A stretch of DNA of 64,000 bases from Phycisphaerales bacterium (lineage in GTDB: Bacteria > Planctomycetota > Phycisphaerae > Phycisphaerales > SM1A02). Below are positions 9,338 through 53,601 of the stretch, piece after piece (position 1 is the first letter of the stretch; every line of letters starts with the position of its first letter). The translations under genes and the position numbers were made by a program. Location of the stretch: contig SIAD01000007.1 of the NCBI GenBank assembly GCA_009691915.1, positions 1 through 64,000 of the forward strand. The letters are read 5' to 3'. Below the pieces are notes generated by a model, which did not search any database, had not been told where the DNA came from, and saw only the letters and a program-made list of their open reading frames with translations.

Positions 9338-11665
9338 TCAGGGGCAGTTGCCCCAGGCCGCGAGGATTGCGGAAAGGTCGATGGCATCAACCGTTCCGCT
9401 TGCGTTGACATCTCCGCTACCACTGCCACCCCAATTGGCAAGAACCACGGAGAGGTCGGTGGCATTGATGACCGAATCACCATTGAGGTCAGCTGGGCAG
9501 GCCACCGAGCACGAGATGTTCAGAGTTCCGGCACCTCCCGCCGTCGTAGTAGCTCCTCCGACGCGCATGTAGTAGGTCGCCCCTGCGACCGAGGTAAAGG
9601 TTGCCGACGATGTGCCACTGGCACACTCGGTTCCGTTGTCATTACACGCCGCAATCGCGGACGAGCCTGTGGGGCACGAGGCGTTGTTGACATACACCAC
9701 GAGCCTCGTATCGAACGCCGCGGTCGAGCAGGTTGAGACAGTCGTTGAGCCCACGCACGACGGCACATACTTGAACCAGACATCCTTGGAGATAGTGGTC
9801 GAGCTGTTGGCGGTGCAGATCGAGGGAATGGCCGGGGAACTGTCAGTTGCATTGGTGCTGTCGAACGCGGTCGCGCCGATCGCGGCGGTCGTCGCACCAG
9901 TGCACTCGTCATTGGCGGGCGGGGGTGGAGGCGTCGTCGTGTAGACGGTGACATCGTCGACATACCAAGTGTCCGCTGCATCATCGCCATTGGTTCGGAA
10001 CCGGAGACGGAACTTGTCGTGGCGGGCGGCTGCGGGAAGTGCATGCTCGTAGGTCGTGAAGACTGTCTGGTTGGTCCCGTCGGAGGTGAGCGTGTTGAGT
10101 GCCACCCAGTCAAGCGTGTTATTGAAGTACTCGACGACCAGCGTCTCACCAGTCTCAACGCCCGTGCGCTCTATCTTGTATGACGCAGTCGCGATAGCCG
10201 ATCCGCCCAGCAGGATGTAGTTGGTGCGGATCTCGTCGTCGTCGTAGGCGTTGACGCCCGTCGAGTTGAGCGCCAGTGAGTACGGCGCGCTCGGTTCGTT
10301 GGTCGCCGCCGAACTCACGCCACCTCCGTCGTTGTAGGTCCAGCGGGCCGTCGTCAGGGTTCCTGACGCGAAGGGCTCCGTGAACGGGACCGCGACCGGA
10401 AGCGGCCTAGTGAAGTCGCACGCGACCTGTCCGAGATAGGTCGTGATCTCCGAGATGGAGAGCGGGTCGAGCTTGAGGTTCGAGCCCGAGATTCCCCCAC
10501 ACGCCCCGTTGGAAGAGCACATGATGTGGCACGCGCTGGTTCCCTGTGAGTCACAGTGGGTCGCGTCCCAGTTGTGCCCGAGTTCATGGGCCGAAAGTGA
10601 GATTCGGTAGTTGAGAGTGGTCGTATACCGGCTCTCAACGACTCCGTACTGCCCCTGAGTGATCGAGGCGCACACACCACCCAGATACGCGAGTCCGATC
10701 GTCCCGCCAGAGAAGGAGTATCCGGAAAACATGTGAACATCGTCGCGGTAGATGCCCGACTCGGGTGACGACGCCCACTTCGTTTCGAGTTCGCCTAGCC
10801 GACCGCCAATCGTGCCGGTCGTGTACGGATCTGCGGACACGCTGCGCACAACAATCGTGCCCAACTCAAAGATGATGTTCACATCGCGGTCGTAGATCGT
10901 GTTGACATTCGAGACAATGAGTTCGATGTCGTTGATCGTGTTGGCAATGCTGCTCGAGTTCTTCGTGAAGAACTCATAGTCGGTCTCGCACGCCAGTTCG
11001 ACCTGAGAAGGAGTCGTTCCAGCGATCCCCCCCTGATCCTGCCCTTGGCCGTCCGCAATGGCCTGGGAGAGCGGAGATCGATACTTGGAGAGTGGGAACC
11101 CGGGACGGCCGAGTGCGCACCCACGTCCGTCGGGGATCACATCGGTGGCTGCGAATGAGACATGCTCGCCATGGCGCGGCAGGTCTGGGCGGAAATCGCT
11201 CAGTGGTTGAATGACCCAGTTCGCCCCATCGGCACGAGTGATCATTCCGCTGAAGCCGGTGGCGAGCAGCGATCCCGTGACGATCGAACCCGGCTGGTCT
11301 TCAAGAGTCCCACGATAGGTTCGGATGGCGGGGGGGTCGGAGTGCTCAAGCACACCGTTCCCACGATCGACGAGCACCGTGAACGAGTCGCCCCTGATCG
11401 AGTGTTTGGCGAGCTGGATCTTGGCGGGAGCACCGCCCAAGGTCGCATCGAACTCAAAGGACGCAGGCAGATCCATTGGCAGCTTCGGGGAGAAGTGCTC
11501 GCATCGCACGAGCTCGGAGATCGCGATCTGGGCGTCGGCCGCGCCGACCAACGGGCCACGCTTCGGTGGCGTCGCCACGCCACTCTGGAGGGCGGCGAGC
11601 ACAGCGATTGACCCGAGAGACAACGAAACGACACCGACAAGGCGTCGAGGGTGGGGGGATGCCAT
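9338..11665 (-). CDS. Secreted metzincin (M12-like) zinc protease with dockerin-like tail
   Basis: 775 residues. Signal peptide (about 1-32), propeptide-like region with a single Cys, then a metzincin domain with HELGHNWDATH (360-370) supplying three His ligands and the catalytic Glu, followed by Cys and a Met-turn (HIMC, 380-383). The usual Gly of HExxHxxGxxH is Asp367. After the protease come a beta-sandwich-like region (about 430-580) and a Cys-rich domain beginning NDECTGA. The last ~55 residues hold two dockerin-like calcium repeats (ADLNGDSVINATDL and GDVNASGTVDAIDL), each followed by a Trp. Probably exported and surface-anchored or assembled. ATG 11665 follows TATATT by 5 nt. Confidence 0.85.
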   Translation of the reverse strand: MASPHPRRLVGVVSLSLGSIAVLAALQSGVATPPKRGPLVGAADAQIAISELVRCEHFSPKLPMDLPASFEFDATLGGAPAKIQLAKHSIRGDSFTVLVDRGNGVLEHSDPPAIRTYRGTLEDQPGSIVTGSLLATGFSGMITRADGANWVIQPLSDFRPDLPRHGEHVSFAATDVIPDGRGCALGRPGFPLSKYRSPLSQAIADGQGQDQGGIAGTTPSQVELACETDYEFFTKNSSSIANTINDIELIVSNVNTIYDRDVNIIFELGTIVVRSVSADPYTTGTIGGRLGELETKWASSPESGIYRDDVHMFSGYSFSGGTIGLAYLGGVCASITQGQYGVVESRYTTTLNYRISLSAHELGHNWDATHCDSQGTSACHIMCSSNGACGGISGSNLKLDPLSISEITTYLGQVACDFTRPLPVAVPFTEPFASGTLTTARWTYNDGGGVSSAATNEPSAPYSLALNSTGVNAYDDDEIRTNYILLGGSAIATASYKIERTGVETGETLVVEYFNNTLDWVALNTLTSDGTNQTVFTTYEHALPAAARHDKFRLRFRTNGDDAADTWYVDDVTVYTTTPPPPPANDECTGATTAAIGATAFDSTNATDSSPAIPSICTANSSTTISKDVWFKYVPSCVGSTTVSTCSTAAFDTRLVVYVNNASCPTGSSAIAACNDNGTECASGTSSATFTSVAGATYYMRVGGATTTAGGAGTLNISCSVACPADLNGDSVINATDLSVVLANWGGSGSGDVNASGTVDAIDLSAILAAWGNCP

Positions 11666-11670
11666 GCCGA

Positions 11671-11676
11671 AATATA
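11671..11676 (-). promoter_or_regulatory. -10 box TATATT, 5 nt before protease ATG
   Basis: The strongest -10 match in this stretch. Minus-strand TATATT ends 5 nt upstream of ATG 11665, leaving no room for a Shine-Dalgarno. Confidence 0.45.
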
Positions 11677-11712
11677 CGCCGGGGCGGACCCATCGCCACG
11701 GAATTCAAAGAA

Positions 11713-11740
11713 AAGCGGCCTAGCAAATGCCAGGCCGCTT
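11713..11740 (-). terminator. Intrinsic terminator after the 11769-13199 gene
   Basis: Perfect 9-bp inverted repeat (AAGCGGCCT at 11713-11721 and AGGCCGCTT at 11732-11740) with a 10-nt loop. On the minus strand the right side is followed by TTCTTT. A GAATTC flanks each side of the hairpin. Confidence 0.75.
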
Positions 11741-11768
11741 GAATTCCCAATGTCGCCGGACCAGTCTG

Positions 11769-13199
11769 TCAGGAGGTCCAGGCACCGAAGATCGTGGAGA
11801 GATCCTGGCCATCGGTGGCACCGTCTGCATTGACATCTCCGCAGGCGGCGCCCCAGCAGCCAAGGACTGCTGAGAGGTCGGAGGCGTTTACGAGGCCGTC
11901 ACAGTTGATGTCTGCGGGGACGCACGGCGGGGCAGCAGCTGTCGGCTTCCTGCCGAGAACCGAGATCGAAGCCTCCGGGCTCGATGCCGTCGTTGCCTTC
12001 CAGATTCCAAGGGTGAGTAGTTGCGACGCATCGGTCGGAGCCGAGTTCGCATCGAACTCGAAGGTGTGCGTCGTTGACCAGCGGATCGCATGAGCGTTGG
12101 CATTCGTGTTCGGTTCGCAGCTCCATGTGATGCTGGCTGCGGTGACCGTTGAGGTCCACGGAGTGTTGGTAAAGACATCGCCGGAGTGATTGAACGGAGC
12201 GGAGTACTTGATGTTGGTCAGCACAACACCCGTTGCTAGCGGCACACTGAACGAGCCACCGTTTCGATCACTGTTGAGATTCTGAACCGCGTACGCGTAG
12301 TGCCAAGTTCCGTCGGCGTTCTGGAACGACCGACTTCCGACCAGGAAGCGCCCGTCGCCGACGACATCGTATTCACGCACAGCGGCATCGGCGTGAATCA
12401 CCTGCCAGGCGTACATAGCCGGGGCCTGCTGGACTGTGCCGCCACTGAAACTGAGCGCGTAGCCGCTGGTAGTCGAGTATGTCGTTCCGACAGTGATGCG
12501 CCGATAAGACGCATTGTTGTTGTCGTTGTTGTTTGAGGCATCCGCCGGGTGCACATACTGGCACTCGACGAAATACGCGGCCCCTGGATTGAGGGCTGCA
12601 GTGAGATCGTCCTTTGGAACGGTGACTCGCTCGCGGATGGTGCTCGGATATCCAGTCGGAATCGCGGGATCCGAATAGGTTCCCGAAAAGTAGCCGGTCG
12701 ATGCGTTGATGCCTGAGCGGCTCTTGAGGTCGCTCTGGCCTCCGTTGAGGCTCGACTCGTACGGATCCGAGCAGCCGATTCCAAGGACCGAGGGGCATCC
12801 GGATCCGGCCGGCGTGCACGCGCCGCACAGGGTTCCCTGAAGCGCACAGAAGCCGTGCTTCACCCAACTCTGGCCGATCTGCGTGAGGACGCCGTTCTTC
12901 ACTCGGTACATGTTCTGAGGGATCACCGGGTGCAGATTGCTCGGATTCGCTTGCCACTGAAGTTGCTGGTTCCCAATGTTGCAACTGGTCGTGCCGACCG
13001 CGTAGCCAACATAGGTGACCCCACCCCAGATCCCTTGGCCGTAGGCCGAAATGTTCTGCATGGTTCCAACGATCACATCGGGTCCGGCGGCAACGCCGCC
13101 GTCGCCGCCATCACCAGGCAGCGCGACCGCATCCAGTTGACCGATGAATACCGCGAGTCCGCAAAGTCCGAGCGATCCGACGAGTGTTCCAATCTTCAC
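11769..13199 (-). CDS. Secreted protein with dockerin-like tail
   Basis: 476 residues. Signal peptide (about 1-26), a long Ser/Thr/Gly/Asn-rich beta-type body with several Cys, and a C-terminal pair of dockerin-like repeats: ADINCDGLVNASDL and GDVNADGATDGQDL, each leading to a Gly-x-Trp-Gly/Gly-Ala-Trp. The body has no recognised enzymatic motif. The start is GTG 13199, supported by a GGAGAG Shine-Dalgarno at 13206-13211. An intrinsic terminator follows. The tail is shared with the neighbouring protease, the 42390 gene and the 52576 gene, pointing to a common sorting or assembly route. Confidence 0.75.
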   Translation of the reverse strand: MKIGTLVGSLGLCGLAVFIGQLDAVALPGDGGDGGVAAGPDVIVGTMQNISAYGQGIWGGVTYVGYAVGTTSCNIGNQQLQWQANPSNLHPVIPQNMYRVKNGVLTQIGQSWVKHGFCALQGTLCGACTPAGSGCPSVLGIGCSDPYESSLNGGQSDLKSRSGINASTGYFSGTYSDPAIPTGYPSTIRERVTVPKDDLTAALNPGAAYFVECQYVHPADASNNNDNNNASYRRITVGTTYSTTSGYALSFSGGTVQQAPAMYAWQVIHADAAVREYDVVGDGRFLVGSRSFQNADGTWHYAYAVQNLNSDRNGGSFSVPLATGVVLTNIKYSAPFNHSGDVFTNTPWTSTVTAASITWSCEPNTNANAHAIRWSTTHTFEFDANSAPTDASQLLTLGIWKATTASSPEASISVLGRKPTAAAPPCVPADINCDGLVNASDLSAVLGCWGAACGDVNADGATDGQDLSTIFGAWTS

Positions 13200-13408
13200 A
13201 GTTATCTCTCCGTGCGTGAGGTTTTGGACTGAAAGTAAACACCAGTTCCAGCCCAGTTAAGGGGGTGGATCAAAGCGACAAACCGACAGCATACCCTACG
13301 CCACAATGCCCTGGGGCGCGGCCTTTCCCCAACATTTTTTTCGAGAAATCAGGTATGGAGTGAGTGCGCCAGCCAAACTCTGGACCCCACCTCGAGCGCC
13401 AGAAACAC

Positions 13409-13437
13409 CTGCGCCGCCGATCGTGCCGGCGGCGCAG
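13409..13437 (-). terminator. GC-rich hairpin downstream of the 13473-14141 gene
   Basis: Perfect 11-bp stem (CTGCGCCGCCG at 13409-13419, CGGCGGCGCAG at 13427-13437) with a 7-nt loop. The minus-strand downstream side reads GTGTTTCTGG, so the T-tract is weak. The remaining intergenic sequence (13200-13472) holds nothing else I can identify beyond the leader of the 13199 gene. Confidence 0.6.
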
Positions 13438-13472
13438 TGCGAGTGCAGAAATATCTGGAAAGGTCCGTTGAC

Positions 13473-14141
13473 CTATTGGTGTCTGCGGCGTCCGCGGCGC
13501 GAGAACTGGAGTGCCAGTGCTCCCAGTGCTGCGACACCGGGGGCCGGGATCACGACGGACACCGGGGATGAGGTAATGGCGGAACTCTGTGTCTCCCTCC
13601 AGTCGATGTTCAACGAGAAACTGAATGCGAATGCCCCTGGGGCGAGGGTGGTTCCAGCGATCTGCATCACCTTGATCTCAGCGGTTCCAGCGAGAACGGG
13701 GTCGTTGTATGGAGTCGCGCCGCCACCGGTGCCGAGCTGTTGGCTCCACCCTGCACCCGCCGGGATCGTCGCGCCGCCACCAGGCCACCCGAGGACTGTG
13801 TTTTCTGTCGACGAGAGGAACTGGCCGTCGATTGAGACCCAGGAGTCGCTCCCAGCCCATGTCGTTGCACCGTTGAAGTTCCACGCCGGATTCCATGTGC
13901 CGCTGCCGTAGTCGCGGTGTTCCACTCCCGCCATCGACCCACCGGTCAGTTGGAAGCTGTTCACGGCAACGAGGCGATCGTTCGTGTCCGAGAAGCTTAG
14001 GTACACCCCCCAGACCCACCTTCCGGCGACCTGCGTGGGAGCAACCAGCTGCGCCGAAACAAACGCTCCGTCACTTTCTCGCGTGGCGGTGACCGCAACC
14101 ATGGCAGCCAATACGCCACAGAATGTCTTTCCTGAGAGCAT
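13473..14141 (-). CDS. Secreted protein with PEP-CTERM-like tail
   Basis: 222 residues. Signal peptide (about 1-22), a beta-rich Trp/Gly body without recognised catalytic motifs, and a C-terminal sorting-type tail. The tail has the motif IPAPG, a hydrophobic stretch of Ala, Leu and Gly, and then SRRGRRRHQ. Such tails are removed by exosortase-like enzymes in known systems, but none is in this window. A frame extends to 14222, but ATG 14141 is chosen because GGGAAGAG lies directly upstream. A strong hairpin follows the gene. Confidence 0.7.
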   Translation of the reverse strand: MLSGKTFCGVLAAMVAVTATRESDGAFVSAQLVAPTQVAGRWVWGVYLSFSDTNDRLVAVNSFQLTGGSMAGVEHRDYGSGTWNPAWNFNGATTWAGSDSWVSIDGQFLSSTENTVLGWPGGGATIPAGAGWSQQLGTGGGATPYNDPVLAGTAEIKVMQIAGTTLAPGAFAFSFSLNIDWRETQSSAITSSPVSVVIPAPGVAALGALALQFSRRGRRRHQ

Positions 14142-14303
14142 CTCTTCCCTTTCCCATTGTGGGTCACCTAACAGCGCGTGCCCAGTACCAATTTTCTGTT
14201 CCATCTCCCAAATCCCATCCACATCACCAGCCTTCCAGGCGGCGAAGCTTCACCCCTCAGAGTGGCACCAACCTCCAGGATTGCAAGCCGAACACAATAA
14301 AAA

Positions 14304-14333
14304 TACCACCGCCATCTTTCGATGGCGGTGGTA
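14304..14333 (-). terminator. Strong intrinsic terminator after the 14398-15057 gene
   Basis: Perfect 13-bp stem (TACCACCGCCATC at 14304-14316, GATGGCGGTGGTA at 14321-14333) with a TTTC loop. The minus-strand 3' side continues TTTTATTGTG. The rest of 14142-14397 holds the leader of the gene starting at 14141 and no other feature. Confidence 0.9.
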
Positions 14334-14397
14334 AGATTCACCTACCTAGTTCTGAGTGATCCGGCTTCACGCCGGATGATTATCGGACGGTAGTCGC

Positions 14398-15057
14398 TCA
14401 GGCGCGACGACGACGGCTGACGAGACCCGCGATCCCCAAGAGCGCGATTGCGCCTGGAGCAGGAATGCCGACCGTGTAGTCGCCCCAACCCCACACCGCA
14501 GTCGTGGAGGCTGTCGAGGACTTGTAGCCCATGCCAAGGTGCGCGGTGTAGCCCGTATCACCAGTGGCGAGAGCGATCTGCATCATCTTGATGCGCTTGG
14601 TCGCCCCGACCACGATCGCAACCGAGGGGTTCGCGGTGTACCAGCCAGCGTGGTAGGGGATGCTGTTGGTGGCCACGCCCGTGCCAAAGCTGGGATCGAG
14701 AGCGGTTGACGACTGTGCGCCGGTCTTGCCAGTCATCGTGACAAAGGAGTCGCGGAACTGGTTCGAAGTGGCTGCCGTCGACGCGCTGGTGTAGGACGCA
14801 TTCCAGTGTCCGATGGCCATGCTGGAGTCGTCCAGATAAGCGTCGGTGTGGAGGGCGTTGAGCGACCCGGCGACGATGTCGTGCTGAAGGCAATTCAGCA
14901 CAACGTTGCTCGCGTTGTCGAACACAGCCCAGACTTGGTAGATCTCGCGACCGGCGACGGTGCCCATGACCACAACTTCCCAATTGGTGAATGTTGCATT
15001 AGCAGCCGAAGTCGCGATGAGCGCAGAAGCGCCCACGAGTAGGGAGAGGGACTTCAT
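14398..15057 (-). CDS. Secreted protein with PEP-CTERM-like tail
   Basis: 219 residues. A clean signal peptide (MKSLSLLVGAS..., cut near ANA at about 22), a body of about 165 residues without recognised motif, and the tail GIPAPGAIALLGIAGL followed by VSRRRRA. This is the textbook layout of proteins sorted by exosortase-like systems, with the PAPG variant common in planctomycetes. ATG 15057 has the Shine-Dalgarno AAGGAT about 10 nt upstream. The gene is isolated, with a strong terminator behind it. Function is unknown. Confidence 0.75.
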   Translation of the reverse strand: MKSLSLLVGASALIATSAANATFTNWEVVVMGTVAGREIYQVWAVFDNASNVVLNCLQHDIVAGSLNALHTDAYLDDSSMAIGHWNASYTSASTAATSNQFRDSFVTMTGKTGAQSSTALDPSFGTGVATNSIPYHAGWYTANPSVAIVVGATKRIKMMQIALATGDTGYTAHLGMGYKSSTASTTAVWGWGDYTVGIPAPGAIALLGIAGLVSRRRRA

Positions 15058-39668: not shown

Positions 39669-40249
39669 ACGACATAGACACTCGCGAGCCGGTCATCGTA
39701 GTTTCAGGATTGCCGCGCTCGGGCACCAGTATGGCGATGCAGATGCTGCAGGCCGGGGGAATCGCGGTCATGACCGACGCGCGCCGCACGCCCGACCTCG
39801 ACAATCCCCGTGGCTACCTCGAATTCGAGCGAGTGAAGCAGCTCAAGTCCGACAAGTCGTGGCTTGCGGATGCTCAGGGCAAGGCTGTCAAGGTGATCCA
39901 TCTCCTCGTCATGGAACTCCCGGAAGACCGTCGGTATCGCGTGATTTTCATGCGCCGCGACCTGCGAGAGGTGGTGCGCTCGCAGGCGGTCATGCTGGAG
40001 CGCAGCGGCAAGGCGGGGGGCGCGCTGGCTCCGCAGCGGATGATGGCGTTGTACGAACAGCAACTGCAGTCGGTGTTCACGTGGCTTGCCGCCCGGCCCG
40101 GTTTCGAGGTTCTCGAACTCGATCACGCGGCGTGTCTCGCGGATCCCCGTTCTGCCGCGGCCCAGATCAATGCGTTCCTCGGGGGGACGCTCAACGAGTC
40201 GGCGATGGTCGCGGCGGTTGATCCGTCGCTGCACCGAAACAAGACCTAG
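39665..40249 (+). CDS. Sulfotransferase-like P-loop protein coupled to arnT
   Basis: 194 residues. The N-terminus reads VIVVSGLPRSGTSMAMQML (about 10-28), the 5'-phosphosulfate loop typical of sulfotransferases. A second part, VIFMRRDLREVVRSQ, matches the 3'-phosphate motif with Arg and Ser. The length is short for the family but the core is intact. It starts with an ATGA overlap inside the arnT stop, so it belongs to the arn transcript. A role in modifying LPS or another envelope glycolipid is an inference; a kinase-like or hydrolase-like role is less likely. Its end overlaps the convergent PDE gene by 4 nt. Confidence 0.75.
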   Translation: MNDIDTREPVIVVSGLPRSGTSMAMQMLQAGGIAVMTDARRTPDLDNPRGYLEFERVKQLKSDKSWLADAQGKAVKVIHLLVMELPEDRRYRVIFMRRDLREVVRSQAVMLERSGKAGGALAPQRMMALYEQQLQSVFTWLAARPGFEVLELDHAACLADPRSAAAQINAFLGGTLNESAMVAAVDPSLHRNKT

Positions 40250-42315
40250 GTCTTGAGAAGCGACGCCGCAAAGGCGGCCGGACCCCAGAGTTCGGCTGGT
40301 GGCGGCGGAAGAGTCGCATCGGCCATGAGCTTCGCGACCGCTTCGCTGTGGGCGGCGGCTTTCGCAGAATCCCCCTCGGCCTCCGCGAGAGTCACGAGGA
40401 ACCGGTGCGCGTCGACGAGCCCTGGTCGCATTGCCACGGCATGGCCAAACGACTGGATCGCGTGGGCATGGTCGCCGAGCCACGCCAGCGCCACGCCAAG
40501 CAAGTCGTGCGCCTCCGGGGTCAGGTGCCGCTTCTCGCACGCATCGAGGCAGTGTTCGACGGCCTCATCCCAACACTTGTCATGGAGCGCGATCCGCGCC
40601 AGCCCAACACTCGGCCGTGGTTCCTTCGCGTCGTGAGCCTTCGCGCGCTCATAGTGCGCGGCTGCCTCCCGGTTCTGCCCCAAGAGCGAGCGCAGGTCCC
40701 CCCACGCCAAGGCGAGATCGGGGCGCGCAGGAGTGCTTCGCTCAAGGAGGTCGGCGAGTCGCCGTGCCTCGTCCAGCTGTCCTGACTGGGCCAGCGATGC
40801 CACGAGTTGGATTCCGACTTCGGCGTTCTCCCGGTGCCGCTGATGAAACGGCGTGAGAAGTGCGACGGCCCGGGAGTGCTCGCGCAATGCAAGGAGACAG
40901 TTCCCGAGATTCACGACGAACCGGCTCTCGTCGGGGTTGTCCTTGACGAGCTGCTCGAGGATCGGCACCGCGAGCGCAGGTCTCGCCGTCGACATGTATA
41001 CGACCGCCAGATTCGCCTGCGACTCACGGCGGGCCAGCGCGATCGACGCCTGCACATTCCCCTCGAGTGAGGGCATATAGCCGAGATCAATGAGCTGCTT
41101 GAGTGCGTCGGCGGACTCGAAGGGATCCTGCCGACCGTCGGCAGGGTGCATCCCGCACTCCCCATCAACTGCATCCCAGCTTGGGATCTCTCGGCGTTCA
41201 TACGATCCGGCCAATGCCTCCGCTAGAACGCGACCGTCCATGTCCTGTCCGACACTGAGACCCAGCAGGGCGAGCGCAGTGGGAGTGATGGCAAGTAGCG
41301 TCGGCGAGTGAACCGTCGCCCCCTGCGCCACTCCCGGCCCGGACATGACGAGGACGCCGAAGGGTCGGTGCCAGCTCGCCTCGACGGCTGCGCGGTCAAG
41401 GGGATCAAGATTCCGTGTCACCGGCCGCTCCAAACCGGAGTGGAATCCGTGGTCGGAGAGGAGCAGAACCGTCGTGTCTGCACCGGCCGCGGCGAGGAGC
41501 TCCCCGAGGGCATGATCGTGCGCCTCATACACCCTCGGCATGACCTCGGCGTAGAGGCGGGCATCGTCCTTGGAGACATGGGCCATCCGCGGAGGGAAGT
41601 ATTCCATGAAGTGATGGCCCACGGTGTCGATCGTCTCGTAGAAGACCATCGTGCAGTCCCACTCTCGATTGGTATTGAGCACTTCCAGCGCGGCGCCGTG
41701 GACAGTGCGCATCCGTGCCAGTTGCTTGGCGAGTGTCTGCGGCCGAGTGTCGTCCGACCGTGTCTGGGAGATCGCGGGGATGAACTGGGAGATAGCGGTC
41801 CTCGAGATGTCGCGGACACCCACTCGCCGCGCCGCGATCCGCTCCGAGCAGGCCTCGGGATGAACGGTTCCCTGCTTGATGGGCCACGGGACGCCAGTCT
41901 TTCCAGGCTCGCCATCCTGGAAAAGGTTGGTGACGCAGACTCCCGAGATGGCCTCCGCCGGGTGTGACGCATACCAGGCGATCACATTGACTCGCATCTG
42001 CTCCTGCGTGAGGATGTTCCAGAGCGCCTTGGTACTGCGGGTTGTGCTCGAGCTGACGCGCAGGGCGTCGCCTTCGGGGGTGGGCTCGACGAAGTTCAGA
42101 ATCCCGTGCTTGTCAGCGGTCTTGCCGGTCGCGATGGAGGACCAGAGCAGGGGAGAGAGCTTGGGTTCGAGCGTTGCGAGGTCGGCTCGGACCCCGGCCT
42201 CAATGAGCCGCTTCAGGTTGGGCATCTTCCCACGAGCCAGAATGGCGTCGATGAGGATCCAGTCTGCGGCATCCCAACCGACGATCAGGAGTTTCTTTGC
42301 GCGCCGTGTCACCAT
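40246..42315 (-). CDS. Type I phosphodiesterase/nucleotide pyrophosphatase domain with C-terminal TPR region
   Basis: 689 residues. The N-terminal ~400 residues belong to the alkaline phosphatase superfamily: IVGWDAADWILIDAI (metal-binding Asp), SPLLWSSIATGKTADKHGI with the probable nucleophile Ser/Thr, and LLLSDHGFHSG with Asp-His. The C-terminal ~250 are helical with TPR-like periodicity (AVALLTPFHQRHRENAEVG, AAAHYERAKAHDAKEPRPSVG). There is no signal peptide. Cytosolic phosphodiesterase or phosphoglycerol-transferase-like activity is possible. ATG 42315 follows TAGGAT by 9 nt. Confidence 0.75.
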   Translation of the reverse strand: MVTRRAKKLLIVGWDAADWILIDAILARGKMPNLKRLIEAGVRADLATLEPKLSPLLWSSIATGKTADKHGILNFVEPTPEGDALRVSSSTTRSTKALWNILTQEQMRVNVIAWYASHPAEAISGVCVTNLFQDGEPGKTGVPWPIKQGTVHPEACSERIAARRVGVRDISRTAISQFIPAISQTRSDDTRPQTLAKQLARMRTVHGAALEVLNTNREWDCTMVFYETIDTVGHHFMEYFPPRMAHVSKDDARLYAEVMPRVYEAHDHALGELLAAAGADTTVLLLSDHGFHSGLERPVTRNLDPLDRAAVEASWHRPFGVLVMSGPGVAQGATVHSPTLLAITPTALALLGLSVGQDMDGRVLAEALAGSYERREIPSWDAVDGECGMHPADGRQDPFESADALKQLIDLGYMPSLEGNVQASIALARRESQANLAVVYMSTARPALAVPILEQLVKDNPDESRFVVNLGNCLLALREHSRAVALLTPFHQRHRENAEVGIQLVASLAQSGQLDEARRLADLLERSTPARPDLALAWGDLRSLLGQNREAAAHYERAKAHDAKEPRPSVGLARIALHDKCWDEAVEHCLDACEKRHLTPEAHDLLGVALAWLGDHAHAIQSFGHAVAMRPGLVDAHRFLVTLAEAEGDSAKAAAHSEAVAKLMADATLPPPPAELWGPAAFAASLLKT

Positions 42316-42335: not shown

Positions 42336-42362
42336 AACCCCTCGGCGTAGGGCCGAGGGGTT
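42336..42362 (-). terminator. Strong intrinsic terminator after the 42390 gene
   Basis: 11-bp perfect stem (AACCCCTCGGC at 42336-42346, GCCGAGGGGTT at 42352-42362) with a 5-nt loop. The stem ends in AA/TT and the minus strand continues in T (six A on the plus strand at 42332-42337). Confidence 0.95.
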
Positions 42363-42389: not shown

Positions 42390-43133
42390 TTACGGGCAGG
42401 TGCCCCAGCCCGAGAGGATGACCGCCATGTCGAGGCCGTCAGTCGTTCCGTCGCTATTCAAGTCACCTGACGCGGTTCCCCAGCCCGAGAGGATGACTGC
42501 CATGTCAAGCCCGTCGCGGAACCCGTCGAGATTGAAGTCGCCGCTGCACGCTGGTGGCGGAGGAGGGCCGACATCGCCGGCATTGATCGTTACACCTGCC
42601 ACATCATTCCACGCGTACTCGACAAGCGTACGAGTCGCGGCGTTCGCGCCGATCGACATTCGTGCCCAGCCGTAGTGGGTGAGACCATCAGCTGCGAGGA
42701 ACTTGAATCCAAAGATTCCAGTTGAATTGGCGGTCCATTGACCGACGAGGGTTCCGATCGTTGCATTCGAACTTCCGTAGAAGAACGATGCAGCGCCGAT
42801 AGCGGTTCTTGCAGCGATGTTTGTGCGGGAAGTGCTAGTTCCAGCGCCTGGATTGCGCATGTAACCAGTTCCCGTCGCCGCATAGAGCGAGACGCCAGTT
42901 AATGAAGTTCCATAGGGATTGACATCCCAACCTGGTACCCCTGATCCCGGGCCATTGAGATACTGCCCAGTCTGGCAGTTGACGTACAGCCCATCAATGT
43001 TCGCCTGGATGACGACATTGATCACACCGCTGTGAACGACTGCGGCGTCGGATTGCGAAGCCGTTGCGACTGTCGCCATGGCGGCAGCACACACCGAAAA
43101 GTGACCTAGAAGTCTCTGAGAACGAGTTTTCAT
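42390..43133 (-). CDS. Secreted protein, paralog A: dockerin-like tail
   Basis: 247 residues. Signal peptide (cut near SDAAV, residue ~31), then a ~155-residue beta-rich domain shared with the next gene, a Pro-rich linker (GPPPPPAC), and two dockerin-like repeats: GDFNLDGFRDGLDMAVILSG and GDLNSDGTTDGLDMAVILSG, each followed by Trp-Gly. ATG 43133 has AGGAGAAGG upstream. The shared domain is nearly identical to paralog B over ~77 codons, but the ends differ completely. The domain itself is not recognised; Gly/Asn/Ser-rich loops (FYGSSNATIGTL) suggest a beta-sandwich. Confidence 0.75.
   Translation of the reverse strand: MKTRSQRLLGHFSVCAAAMATVATASQSDAAVVHSGVINVVIQANIDGLYVNCQTGQYLNGPGSGVPGWDVNPYGTSLTGVSLYAATGTGYMRNPGAGTSTSRTNIAARTAIGAASFFYGSSNATIGTLVGQWTANSTGIFGFKFLAADGLTHYGWARMSIGANAATRTLVEYAWNDVAGVTINAGDVGPPPPPACSGDFNLDGFRDGLDMAVILSGWGTASGDLNSDGTTDGLDMAVILSGWGTCP
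42699..42929. repeat. Copy 1 of 231-nt near-identical tract
   Basis: Aligned without gaps to 43531-43761 (offset 832), it differs at 4 positions. Identity drops sharply on both sides. It lies inside paralog A. Confidence 0.9.
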
Positions 43134-43263
43134 TGAACCTTCTCCTCGCGGCTTTGCCGCAATGCGCTTGTTTCCCACTTGTGTAAAACTGCTTTGCCGT
43201 CGCAGCAGTAATAGCCGCTAAACGAGCGTATACAACCCTTGCCCCTCTTCAACTTAAAAAAAA

Positions 43264-43289
43264 CATCGGCGGCCACGGGGCCGCCGATG
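43264..43289 (-). terminator. Strong intrinsic terminator after paralog B
   Basis: 11-bp perfect stem (CATCGGCGGCC at 43264-43274, GGCCGCCGATG at 43279-43289), loop ACGG. The minus strand continues with a run of about 8 T. The rest of 43134-43338 is the leader of paralog A, with no other feature. Confidence 0.95.
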
Positions 43290-43338
43290 GAGTTTCAAAT
43301 CGTGATCTGCGTCCTAAAGCCGCAGAATTGAGTCAGAA

Positions 43339-43953
43339 TCAGGCGCGTCGACGACGGTTGATGAGACCTGCGAGACCGAGAAGCGCAACCGCTCCAGGGG
43401 CTGGAGCTCCAGCGGCAATCGTTGTAGCAGCGGTTGACTCAAATCCATAGTCCACGATCGTGCGCGTTGCTGCGTTGGCACCGATGGCGAGACGCATCCA
43501 ACCGTAATGGGTCAAATTGTCTGCGGCTACGAACTTGAATCCAAAGATTCCAGTTGAATTGGCGGTCCATTGACCGACGAGGGTTCCGATCGTTGCATTC
43601 GAACTTCCGTAGAAGAACGATGCAGCGCCGATAGCGGTTCCTGCAGCGATGTTTGTGCGGGAAGTGCTAGTTCCAGCGCCAGGATTGCGCATGTAACCAG
43701 TTCCCACCGCCGCATAGAGCGAGACGCCAGTTAATGAAGTTCCATAGGGATTGACATCCCATCCAGGAACTCCCGCGCCTGCGCCGGCGAGATACTGCCC
43801 GGTTTGAACATTCATGTAAATGCCGTCAATGTTGGCGGGAACCACGATGTTGACAACGCCGCTGTAGACAACGACTGCATCCGCAGACGCGACCACGGCC
43901 ACGGCCGCCGCTGCAGCAACGAAGTGCTTGTTCAGACGATTCGAGATACTCAT
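43339..43953 (-). CDS. Secreted protein, paralog B: PEP-CTERM-like tail
   Basis: 204 residues. Signal peptide (MSISNRLNKHF..., cut near ASADA), the same beta-rich domain as paralog A, and a C-terminal tail APAPGAVALLGLAGL followed by INRRRRA. So the same domain is delivered by two different tails. ATG 43953 has the Shine-Dalgarno GGAG in the reverse complement of CTCC upstream; the longer frame (to 44016) is not supported. The leader of about 60 nt and the gene end at 44126 leave 172 nt with no other gene. Function is unknown. Confidence 0.75.
   Translation of the reverse strand: MSISNRLNKHFVAAAAAVAVVASADAVVVYSGVVNIVVPANIDGIYMNVQTGQYLAGAGAGVPGWDVNPYGTSLTGVSLYAAVGTGYMRNPGAGTSTSRTNIAAGTAIGAASFFYGSSNATIGTLVGQWTANSTGIFGFKFVAADNLTHYGWMRLAIGANAATRTIVDYGFESTAATTIAAGAPAPGAVALLGLAGLINRRRRA
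43531..43761. repeat. Copy 2 of 231-nt near-identical tract
   Basis: Partner of 42699-42929: 4 mismatches over 231 aligned positions (one in GCGGTTCCTG, one in GCGCCAGG, two in TTCCCACC). It lies inside paralog B. Confidence 0.9.
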
Positions 43954-44125: not shown

Positions 44126-45220
44126 TCAGGGCCGGGGCTGAAATGCGCGCCCAGATGGCCGTCCGGCGGGCTGATTCGGCTTTGAAGGCCTGTTTTTTGC
44201 GTGAAACTCGGGTTCGAACCAGTCGGAGGTCTGCTGGAGTTGGCTCGATGGACGCCGAGAGGCCCCTTCGAGGAGCTCCAAGTTGATGCGCTTGGCAAAT
44301 GGACCCATCCTCGCCCCCGACTGCGATCCTGCGTCGATCCACTCCAAATGGGCCCTGAGTACCTCATAGGTCTGTGCGTCCGCCACGACCATCGCATGTC
44401 GAGGTCCTGGAGTCCGTCCAGCCGTTCCCTTCCTCGTGAACGACACGGTCATCGTCGGGCGGTCGCCCGGCTGGCTCTCCATGGGTGAGGGTTCGAACGA
44501 GGTCGTGTACCCACGGTCGAGCTTCGCAAGCATCGACTCCAGCGTGAGTGGCTCAAGCTCAACGGACTCGCCCTGATCGATCACGCCGCCTGACTCGAGC
44601 GTCCCAAGAAACATCGGGAGATTGAGCTCGCGCATCGACTTCGCAGTGCGCACTTCGCCGTGGGGATCGATCAACCAGTAGACGGTTCCATTGAACCCGA
44701 AGTTCACCCGGAGACGGGGAGTCCGCGGCTTGGACTCATCGCCAGACTCATTGGGCGGCGGGGACGGTGGTTGGAAGGCAAGCATCCACCGGCCACCGGG
44801 CCCAAGGACGAGCTCGCCCGCGCGGCTGACTCCCTTTGACGGAGAGTTCTCCAACTCCATTGTGATCCGGTAGGTGCGCACTCCCTCGCGGGCGGTCGCG
44901 CGAATCGACTCGAGCGCGGCGTACGCCCTGGAATCAGAGTCGGAGGGGACGAAGAACACCGCCAGCACGATCGCCGCGGCAATCCCGACCGAGCCGCCGA
45001 TCCAGGCCACTCGTTGCCGGACGCGCAGGCGAAATCGGCCATTCTCCCGGCGAATTGTGTCAATCGCGCGATCGACGCGCCGCTGCACCCTCGCCGCCTC
45101 TCCCGGGAGGAGCAGCGCGAGCAGTCCATGCACGACGGCACTGTCCGCGGCGACATGGTCCGGGGCGACATGGTCCGGGGCGCCATCGCTCTCGCGGGCG
45201 AAGGGATCTCTCTCGTTCAT
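44126..45220 (-). CDS. Membrane regulator paired with ECF sigma (putative anti-sigma)
   Basis: 364 residues. Cytoplasmic N-terminus (~80 residues, Asp/Val/Ala-rich, then Arg-rich), one membrane helix (about 88-107, IGGSVGIAAAIVLAVFF), and a large exported domain (about 120-340) that resembles the LolA/RseB-type beta-sheet layout. The N-terminus lacks the His-Cys-Cys zinc motif of classical zinc anti-sigma factors. Its ATG overlaps the sigma stop by 4 nt, so the two are coupled. A single protein could then sense the periplasm and bind sigma; this is inferred from order and topology. Pro/Arg-rich C-terminus. Confidence 0.6.
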   Translation of the reverse strand: MNERDPFARESDGAPDHVAPDHVAADSAVVHGLLALLLPGEAARVQRRVDRAIDTIRRENGRFRLRVRQRVAWIGGSVGIAAAIVLAVFFVPSDSDSRAYAALESIRATAREGVRTYRITMELENSPSKGVSRAGELVLGPGGRWMLAFQPPSPPPNESGDESKPRTPRLRVNFGFNGTVYWLIDPHGEVRTAKSMRELNLPMFLGTLESGGVIDQGESVELEPLTLESMLAKLDRGYTTSFEPSPMESQPGDRPTMTVSFTRKGTAGRTPGPRHAMVVADAQTYEVLRAHLEWIDAGSQSGARMGPFAKRINLELLEGASRRPSSQLQQTSDWFEPEFHAKNRPSKPNQPAGRPSGRAFQPRP

Positions 45221-45759
45221 CGCGGCACCTCCGTGGCTGGAACAAAGATGCTCTTCGCGCGCAGGCACTCGGCTAGGGCTAGGCGCGCGCGGTATAGCCG
45301 CTTGCGGAAGGTCTCGTCGTTGGTGGCAAGAGTCCGCGCCGCCGCGGTGGCGTCGAGCCCCCGGACATAGACGAGATCGACCGCCTCCCGCGCGTCCGGG
45401 GAAAGCCTTTCTATGCAGTCACGCAATGATTCGAGGCGGTCAGCGAATGTGTCGCCGGGTGAGCCATTGATCCGATCGATTTGCTGATCGACCCGGCGCT
45501 GCAGAAGCTCGTCGAGGTGCGCCTTGTAGCGGCGATTCCCCCGGGCAGTATTCAGAATGTGGTTGCGGGCGATCCCCCTAAGCCAGGGGCCGAACGGGCG
45601 GGTCGCATCGAACTCCTCAATCCGCTGCCAGGCGGTGATGACGGTCTCCTGAAAGATGTCGTCGACCGCGGAGCGATCGAACGCGACCGCATGAATGAAC
45701 GCGCTGAGCATCTCCGCGTGCTGCCTGATCAAGATGTTGAAGAGGTTTTCCGCTCGCAT
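45217..45759 (-). CDS. ECF-type sigma factor (copy 1)
   Basis: About 180 residues. Region 2 reads AFDRSAVDDIFQETVITAWQRIEEF, with a FGPWLRGIARNHILNTAR helix for the -10 element; region 4 is the C-terminal RLSPDAREAVDLVYVRGLDATAAARTL helix-turn-helix. Both regions are separated by a linker of ~45 residues, as in planctomycete ECFs. The start is uncertain: ATG 45759 or 45792. Divergent from a MacB-type exporter (45849), with the membrane regulator coupled behind. Likely targets: its own operon and possibly the exporter. Confidence 0.85.
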   Translation of the reverse strand: MRAENLFNILIRQHAEMLSAFIHAVAFDRSAVDDIFQETVITAWQRIEEFDATRPFGPWLRGIARNHILNTARGNRRYKAHLDELLQRRVDQQIDRINGSPGDTFADRLESLRDCIERLSPDAREAVDLVYVRGLDATAAARTLATNDETFRKRLYRARLALAECLRAKSIFVPATEVPR

Positions 45760-45848
45760 GCCAGCCTGCAACGGTAGTTCGCCGCAGATCATCCCGGGGG
45801 GACACCGACTGGGTCGAAGTAGCATCGCCCGCCCGGAGACGGGAGGCC

Positions 45849-52575: not shown

Positions 52576-53601
52576 TCACACCGACCAGTTGCTAAACAGG
52601 GCAGTCAGGTCTAGGCCATCGACTGTGCCGTCCCCGTTGATGTCTGCTGAGGCACTGGAGGTGCCCCACGCGCTGAAAAGCGCCGTCAGATCCATGCCAT
52701 CGACCGTGCCGTCGCCGTTGACGTCCCCCATGATCGGGCTTGGGACGCCGCTTGCCACCAAGGAGAGGTCAAGCGTCGAGGATCCTGAACCATCGGAGAA
52801 GGTCCCAGAGAAGAGAAGGTTGGCCGTGAGTGTCCCGGGCGGGATTGTCGGGAGGGCGACCGGCATATTGACAAGCGGCGGGGGCGGCGGCAACGGACCT
52901 ATTGGTTCGCTCGAGTGGACGGTCGATGTGAGCGACGCAGTTGACCCACGCGGTGTCAGCGTCCCGGTCAGCGTGAAGATCGCGGGTGTCGGATCTGGAG
53001 GAAGTGGCTGGCCACCCACGCTTCCGGTGACACTCACGAGTACCGGGATTGCGACAGCGACCGTAACAGTTCCGCTCCCCGACGGAGTTGCCGTCCCCAG
53101 AGCGGGGCCTGCCTGAACCGCAATCGCCGCCGTGATGGTCCCCGAGCCCACCGGAATGGTCACTGGGCCCAGTGATGGATAAATCGATGACGGGGCGACG
53201 GTGTGAAAGGTGGAGTAGGTCAGGATCAGATCGGATGTCACCGTCCCGGGGAACCCATTGACAAGATCGCACGCGAAGCCGGTGACCTGACAAGCGCCCG
53301 GAGCGACCAGGGCAAGGGTGAATGTTCCGGCGGGATGGGAGTTGATGGCATTGCTCGTTCGCGAAGTTGATGTGTACGGAATGGCGTTGTTTCCCGATCC
53401 GCCAAAGAAGCCGGGAAGGGTGCGAGTCCCTGTGGGGTTTGCCGCCGCGTCGTAGTTGCCGATGAAGGTCCCGGCAAGCGGATACTGGACGGTCATCGAC
53501 TGGGTTGCGGTGCTCGCGCTCTGAAGCGTGAAGTCGTAGGAGTCCGCAGCAACGGCAGCGCAACCAAGACACGCCGCGATCGGGAGCACGCAGAGATGCA
53601 T
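52576..53601 (-). CDS. Secreted protein with dockerin-like tail
   Basis: 341 residues. Signal peptide (MHLCVLPIAACLGCAAVAA), a Thr/Ser/Pro-rich beta-type body of ~250 residues (GTVTVAVAIPV, TPAIFTLTGTLT), and two dockerin-like repeats at the C-terminus: GDVNGDGTVDGMDLTALFSAW and ADINGDGTVDGLDLTALFSNW, close to consensus with all Asp/Asn ligands kept. ATG 53601 has a full promoter whose predicted start falls at the ATG. No enzymatic motif is recognised. Confidence 0.8.
   Translation of the reverse strand: MHLCVLPIAACLGCAAVAADSYDFTLQSASTATQSMTVQYPLAGTFIGNYDAAANPTGTRTLPGFFGGSGNNAIPYTSTSRTSNAINSHPAGTFTLALVAPGACQVTGFACDLVNGFPGTVTSDLILTYSTFHTVAPSSIYPSLGPVTIPVGSGTITAAIAVQAGPALGTATPSGSGTVTVAVAIPVLVSVTGSVGGQPLPPDPTPAIFTLTGTLTPRGSTASLTSTVHSSEPIGPLPPPPPLVNMPVALPTIPPGTLTANLLFSGTFSDGSGSSTLDLSLVASGVPSPIMGDVNGDGTVDGMDLTALFSAWGTSSASADINGDGTVDGLDLTALFSNWSV

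Follow-up and report, generated by a model that had tools for sequence, protein, structure and literature searches.

The window, the whole stretch of 64,000 nucleotides analysed here, comes from the genome of an uncultured lake planctomycete, referred to below as G000, and carries on its minus strand two adjacent genes, A and B, arranged head to tail with B first and A second. Both encode secreted proteins that have in common a domain some 155 residues long, termed the head below, as the preliminary description had it. The features of the locus and its neighbourhood are as follows.

40246..42315, minus strand: phosphodiesterase/TPR gene; a synteny anchor that comes after the array in several relatives
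42336..42362, minus strand: predicted intrinsic terminator 3' of A
42390..43133, minus strand: gene A, from the open reading frame and homologues; secreted protein of 247 aa with signal peptide, head domain and dockerin-like tail ending WGTCP
42393..42566, minus strand: dockerin-like tail of A, with repeats at 42399-42440 and 42474-42515; PF00404 sub-threshold
42576..43040, minus strand: mature head domain of A, from alignments
42699..42929, minus strand: putative acceptor tract of the conversion in A; matches B at 227/231 bases and 76/78 third positions, nested in the B clade (97/96)
43264..43289, minus strand: predicted intrinsic terminator 3' of B
43339..43953, minus strand: gene B, from the open reading frame and homologues; secreted protein of 204 aa with signal peptide, head domain and PEP-CTERM-like tail PAPGAVALLGLAGLINRRRRA
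43342..43407, minus strand: PEP-CTERM-like tail of B; TIGR02595 up to 15.8 bits (cut-off 16)
43408..43875, minus strand: mature head domain of B; structure model all-beta, pLDDT 83.5, pTM 0.81
43531..43761, minus strand: matching tract in B (probable donor), in a clade with the G018 and G014 B genes
44126..45268, minus strand: pre-array gene without a Pfam family; synteny anchor
45217..45825, minus strand: ECF sigma factor (TIGR02989); synteny anchor

Shine-Dalgarno sequences lie 5' of the ATG of both genes, AGGAGAAGG for A and GGAG for B. Because B has its own terminator, A and B are probably transcribed separately; a sigma-70 scan of the locus detected no promoter. The source contig (83.9 kb) is continuous across the A/B locus and carries syntenic genes on both sides. 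A second cluster of secreted tail-bearing proteins occupies 9338-15057 of the window. Two of its ORFs are large and have dockerin-like tails, with tail matches at 9341-9502 and 11775-11933; it also includes a PEP-CTERM protein, at 14398-15057, weakly related to B (37%, E 8.6e-5). One more dockerin-like tail, 50% identical to the tail of A, lies at 52582-52743 on the minus strand.

The tail of A contains two calcium-loop (DxNxDGxxD) repeats in tandem, DFNLDGFRD and DLNSDGTTD. The corresponding DNA segments form a direct repeat, 90% identical and spaced 75 bases apart, and the two dockerin-like repeats described earlier for this protein are thus real, though the type I dockerin model PF00404 scores the tail at 13.7 bits, below its cut-off of 22.9. 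The tail matches 59 stretches in the 2.27 Mb genome, compared with seven PEP-CTERM matches, and is a general C-terminal module in G000. The Pfam cohesin model PF00963 matched none of 21 genomes at E<=0.001, and G000 is without a match. Between head and tail, the dockerin-tailed genes of most relatives (L053, L055, L057, L059, L060 and L067) encode a further region of about 300 residues that starts with PPxYDPC; this region is absent from G000, G017 and G008.

The tail of B has PAPG in place of PEP and falls below the cut-offs of both available models (11.7 of 20.7 bits for PF07589, 12-15.8 of 16 bits for TIGR02595). Its extreme C-terminus combines a hydrophobic stretch with a basic cluster, GAVALLGLAGLINRRRRA, and the genome encodes a single exosortase (G000:C17:35480-36271; PF09721, E=2.5e-44), a family found in 40 of 41 genomes.

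The head family has no assignment in Pfam, NCBIfam (above cut-off) or PHROGs. A PDB sequence search with the head gave no match, and Foldseek with the head model gave none at E<=0.001 (E>0.1). The six best VIA-align matches of the predicted head are all HmuY-like haem-binding lipoproteins, with Z of 7.2-8.5, rmsd of 3.5-3.8 and 122-129 residues aligned, below which the next unrelated structure has a Z of 6.0 and the following one 4.3. The likeness to the HmuY-like lipoproteins (PDB 8b6a, 6r2h, 3u22, 6eu8, 3h8t and 4gbs) lies in the predicted fold; the head has no sequence match, Foldseek significance or strictly conserved ligand residues. Only His120 (80%) and Met59 (53%) are prominent in the conservation profile, and no strictly conserved His or Met pair that could serve as haem ligands was found in the head. 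The predicted fold is closest to that of the HmuY-like proteins, which offers a weak lead towards a ligand-binding role.

Within the heads, 42699-42929 and 43531-43761 match at exactly 227 of 231 positions, as first reported, and base-by-base comparison at an offset of 832 places the four mismatches at 42809, 42849, 42874 and 42875. The flanks are indeed more divergent: codon-aligned nucleotide identity between A and B is 58% on the N-side, 98% in the tract and 58% on the C-side, and the 20-base bins flanking the tract match at 6-14 of 20 positions. Third-position identity is 16/60 on the N-side, 76/78 in the tract and 10/41 on the C-side, that is, 97% inside against 24-27% outside, so protein-level selection cannot account for the island. 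Where A and B encode the same residue, the codon is different at 2 of 76 positions within the tract and at 45 of 63 outside it (Fisher p=2.5e-19). Uniform divergence across the two domains was not seen, and a conversion test by permutation of mismatch positions gave p<=5e-5 for the island. The tract is bounded by conserved motifs, GWDxNPYG upstream and GFKF downstream.

A young tandem duplication whose flanks diverged fast would be in keeping with two genes that are adjacent, co-oriented and homologous across the whole head, but this explanation is exceedingly improbable: third positions outside the tract are saturated while those inside are 97% identical, the C-side tree parts A from B, and paired arrays are present in other species. 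The preliminary description had likewise argued against a young whole-gene duplication, and the saturated synonymous sites support it. There is also hardly any likelihood that a nucleotide-level constraint, such as RNA structure or codon use, produced the island in the absence of conversion. The tract is slightly better conserved than its flanks elsewhere, as in the comparison of the G000 and G002 B genes (79% vs 70-72%); third positions in the tract of this same pair, however, are only 55% identical, and fourfold identity of the head descends to 40-45% in many pairs, which together indicate that the tract is under no such constraint.

Phylogenetic analysis of the tract places A inside a clade of PEP-tailed B genes, together with B, G018 B and G014 B (97/96). 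On the C-side, by contrast, the AU test rejected both a grouping of A with B (p=0.00075) and a position of A within the B clade (p=0.02). The N-side tree is undecided, a grouping of A with B not being rejected (p=0.29), because this piece is short and saturated. Of the four tract sites that differ, three set A apart from B and from its G018 and G014 orthologs alike. Within the tract, A sits in the B clade and B keeps with its orthologs. The island is most likely the product of gene conversion, apparently copied from B to A, although the donor could have been a B-like gene of another species instead of the resident B. The recent gene conversion proposed at the outset is thus strongly supported by the sharp synonymous edges, the conflict between the tract and C-side trees, and the B-to-A direction. 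The conversion stops well short of the tail, and on this reading of the sequences no tail swap occurred between A and B in G000.

Such tracts recur. The third-position test, applied to 133 within-genome pairs, returned six significant tracts at 5% FDR, one each in G000, G012, G013, G151, G218 and G225. Every one of these pairs joins a PEP-tailed with a dockerin-tailed gene, two of the six dockerin partners being truncated by a contig end and assigned to their class from the linker. Tracts were present in 6 of 58 PEP-dockerin pairs and in none of the 75 other pairs (p=0.006); the remaining 52 of the 58 had no significant tract. That all six tracts among the 133 pairs are of the PEP-dockerin kind implies that genes of the two kinds have undergone conversion repeatedly and not in a single accident. 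A further candidate in G017, where 149 identical bases on two contigs form an exact end overlap, is probably an assembler k-mer and was not counted as conversion.

The chief weak point of this analysis is that the named relatives are metagenome assemblies, in which near-identical heads of co-occurring species could be falsely joined. An assembly artefact, in which one copy, or the copy of a co-occurring species, filled the other and created a false island, is nevertheless unlikely. It would agree with the contigs that end within family heads (the overlap of exactly 149 bases in G017, and the heads cut in G252, G091, G108 and G271) and with the similar B heads found in relatives from the same lake (Baikal). 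Against it, the 83.9 kb contig extends past the locus in both directions into syntenic genes, the A and B copies differ at four sites of which three are private to A, and the same kind of tract occurs in five further genomes.

Many contigs end inside family heads, including L064 and L065 (G017), L103/L161 (G252), L139, L140, L145, L182 and L183, as would be expected if near-identical copies confuse assemblers. Head arrays are probably under-reported in metagenome bins.

The family was traced through 61, later 301, genomes of the order. These yielded 128 head genes, of which 84 carry a PEP-CTERM-like tail and about 34 a dockerin-like tail or its preceding linker. The pair does occur in related genomes: G004, G012, G013 and G016 have arrays of one to several PEP-tailed tandem copies with the dockerin-tailed copy last, like the window. 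The syntenic locus in relatives is bounded by the phosphodiesterase/TPR gene and the ECF sigma factor region. The dockerin-tailed gene is elsewhere or was not seen in G018, G019 and G015. At the G018 locus (L047), gene A and the adjoining phosphodiesterase/TPR gene are both absent, as if they were jointly gained or lost; G019 is similar. The second gene of G014 was considered as an A gene with a swapped tail and rejected; given its place at the end of a contig and its similarity to the middle PEP-tailed copy in longer arrays, it provides no evidence for a tail swap.

The dockerin genes of G016, G012 and G013 are mostly 80-99% identical in flanks, linker and tail and 55-80% identical in the head, with the profiles of some adjacent pairs, whose upstream stretches had aligned to their own neighbour, left out. 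The G016 head is of a different type from the G012 and G013 heads. The linker/tail tree of these three genomes matches that of rpoB. In the head tree, by contrast, G016 groups with G035 (98/97); therefore the tails stay and the heads change. A single clade of all dockerin-tailed heads was rejected (p=9e-69), and at least nine tail changes are forced on the tree of 115 heads. The tail label is still clustered on that tree, with 20 changes vs 29.6 in shuffles, so head/tail exchange is not free. An apparent independence of head and tail at the genus level (11 changes vs 11.9 shuffled) became weaker once more genomes were included (20 vs 29.6).

These results also bear on the claim that the tails themselves are interchangeable modules, which is better inverted. 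The same head family does bear both tail types, but array position and the rpoB-like linker/tail tree identify the tails as resident and the heads as the parts that move. The converse arrangement, tails as moving parts swapped onto resident heads, finds some footing in the one head family with two tail types and in the 59 stretches of G000 that match the dockerin-like tail. We consider it quite improbable, as array position, flanks and linker/tail phylogeny cohere while the head changes (G016 vs G012/G013), and the conversion in G000 ends well before the tail.

Heads are also shared between species. Fourfold identity of head and rpoB (head/rpoB) is 99/56 for G183-G121 and 95/51 for G034-G240, both pairs from different genera, 97/41 for G015-G005 and 86/39 for G000-G018; in nine pairs the excess of the head over rpoB has a Fisher p of 2e-13 or lower. 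Signal peptides of the head-sharing pairs between species are 56-82% identical and upstream stretches 55-75%, and this divergence indicates that the shared piece has edges and that the contigs are not simply misplaced. Between G000 and G018 the tail is shared too (99%), and the genes adjoining the heads have a fourfold identity of 32-34%. Genes for DprA and ComEC were found in all 21 genomes tested, so DNA uptake is possible. A mosaic head in G252, from another genus (L103, 5923-6387), begins as the VNF...ADIDG type and from about GWDVNPYG onwards is like the B heads of the window's genus; the changeover falls close to the motif found at the edge of the tract in A.

Sequence comparison documents the island, the phylogenetic conflict, the recurrence, the resident tails and the sharing of heads between genera. 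The explanation that we regard as very probable is that A and B are tandem paralogs of long standing and that a B-to-A conversion of 231 bases is one case of recurrent head movement. The two genes would have a common secreted head and unlike C-terminal tails, and homologous recombination of the conversion type would recently have put 231 bases of the B head into A, leaving its signal peptide, the rest of its head and the tails untouched. The edge motifs GWDxNPYG and GFKF may have served as homology anchors. In lake planctomycetes, heads would travel between tandem copies regardless of tail and would also come in on DNA of other species or genera, whereas the signal peptide, the tail and the place of the gene would for the most part stay resident. 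Uptake of free DNA and RecA-type recombination is the likely route, presumably with the machinery that this implies. The benefit would probably be that one outward-facing binding domain is kept or refreshed on two differently placed proteins, of which one would be processed by exosortase and the other would carry a tail of calcium-binding-type repeats.

Gene conversion and surface-domain shuffling are already known kinds of event, and gene conversion between paralogs of surface proteins is best known in pathogens under immune attack. Here it occurs in free-living lake bacteria, between differently tailed copies, together with exchange between species and genera at near-zero synonymous divergence. 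The head thereby stands out as subject to unusual pressure, be it from phage, grazers, or particle or nutrient binding. Because both tails bear the same head, the system is a natural experiment on the roles of the tails. It also cautions that, for families of this kind, both gene trees and metagenome assemblies are mosaics. More speculatively, and on balance doubtfully, the head could be a community-wide cassette, a small surface-binding domain traded among lake planctomycete genera on two anchor types. If so, recombination at conserved edge motifs would give free-living bacteria a means of diversification akin to the antigen or receptor shuffling of pathogens, and every cell would present the heads it currently has on both anchors.

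Several known systems resemble parts of this arrangement. In the 'choice-of-anchor' protein families of NCBI, one domain family occurs with differing C-terminal anchor signals; the present head differs in lying below every NCBIfam cut-off and in having the two anchor types adjacent and recombining. The literature searched contained no paper on PEP-CTERM and gene conversion or on choice-of-anchor and PEP-CTERM, nor any case in free-living lake bacteria that combines two tail types with exchange between genera. The C-terminal motif, hydrophobic stretch, basic cluster and exosortase in the genome are like those of PEP-CTERM/exosortase sorting (Haft 2006, PMC1569441), unlike which the B tail has PAP, not PEP, and scores under both curated cut-offs. 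Paralogous expansion of PEP-CTERM proteins was noted in that work; as far as searched, it contains no description of conversion between paralogs that have different tails. Cohesins and dockerins have been reported from freshwater Phycisphaerae, for which a peptide-degrading (peptidase) complex was proposed (Andrei 2019, PMC6461901). With this planctosome of Nemodlikiaceae, CL500-3, the present system has in common the freshwater Phycisphaerae, the small genomes and the dockerin modules on non-cellulosomal proteins, but no cohesin was detected here with PF00963.

Parallels for the recombination itself come from surface proteins of pathogens. According to the abstract of PMC10919680, DBLMSP and DBLMSP2 of Plasmodium falciparum undergo nonallelic gene conversion and have deeply diverged domain lineages common to both; like A and B, they are diverged surface-protein paralogs with one domain shared through conversion. 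They belong to a eukaryotic parasite, and that abstract mentions neither a contrast of anchor tails nor exchange between genera. Surface proteins of Porphyromonas gingivalis undergo domain rearrangement and allelic exchange, with DNA acquired via competence and conjugation (PMC5266723), and there, too, variant surface-protein domains form a mosaic unrelated to the genome tree. Exchange in P. gingivalis takes place within one species, whereas the heads described here cross species and genera, and do so on two tail types.
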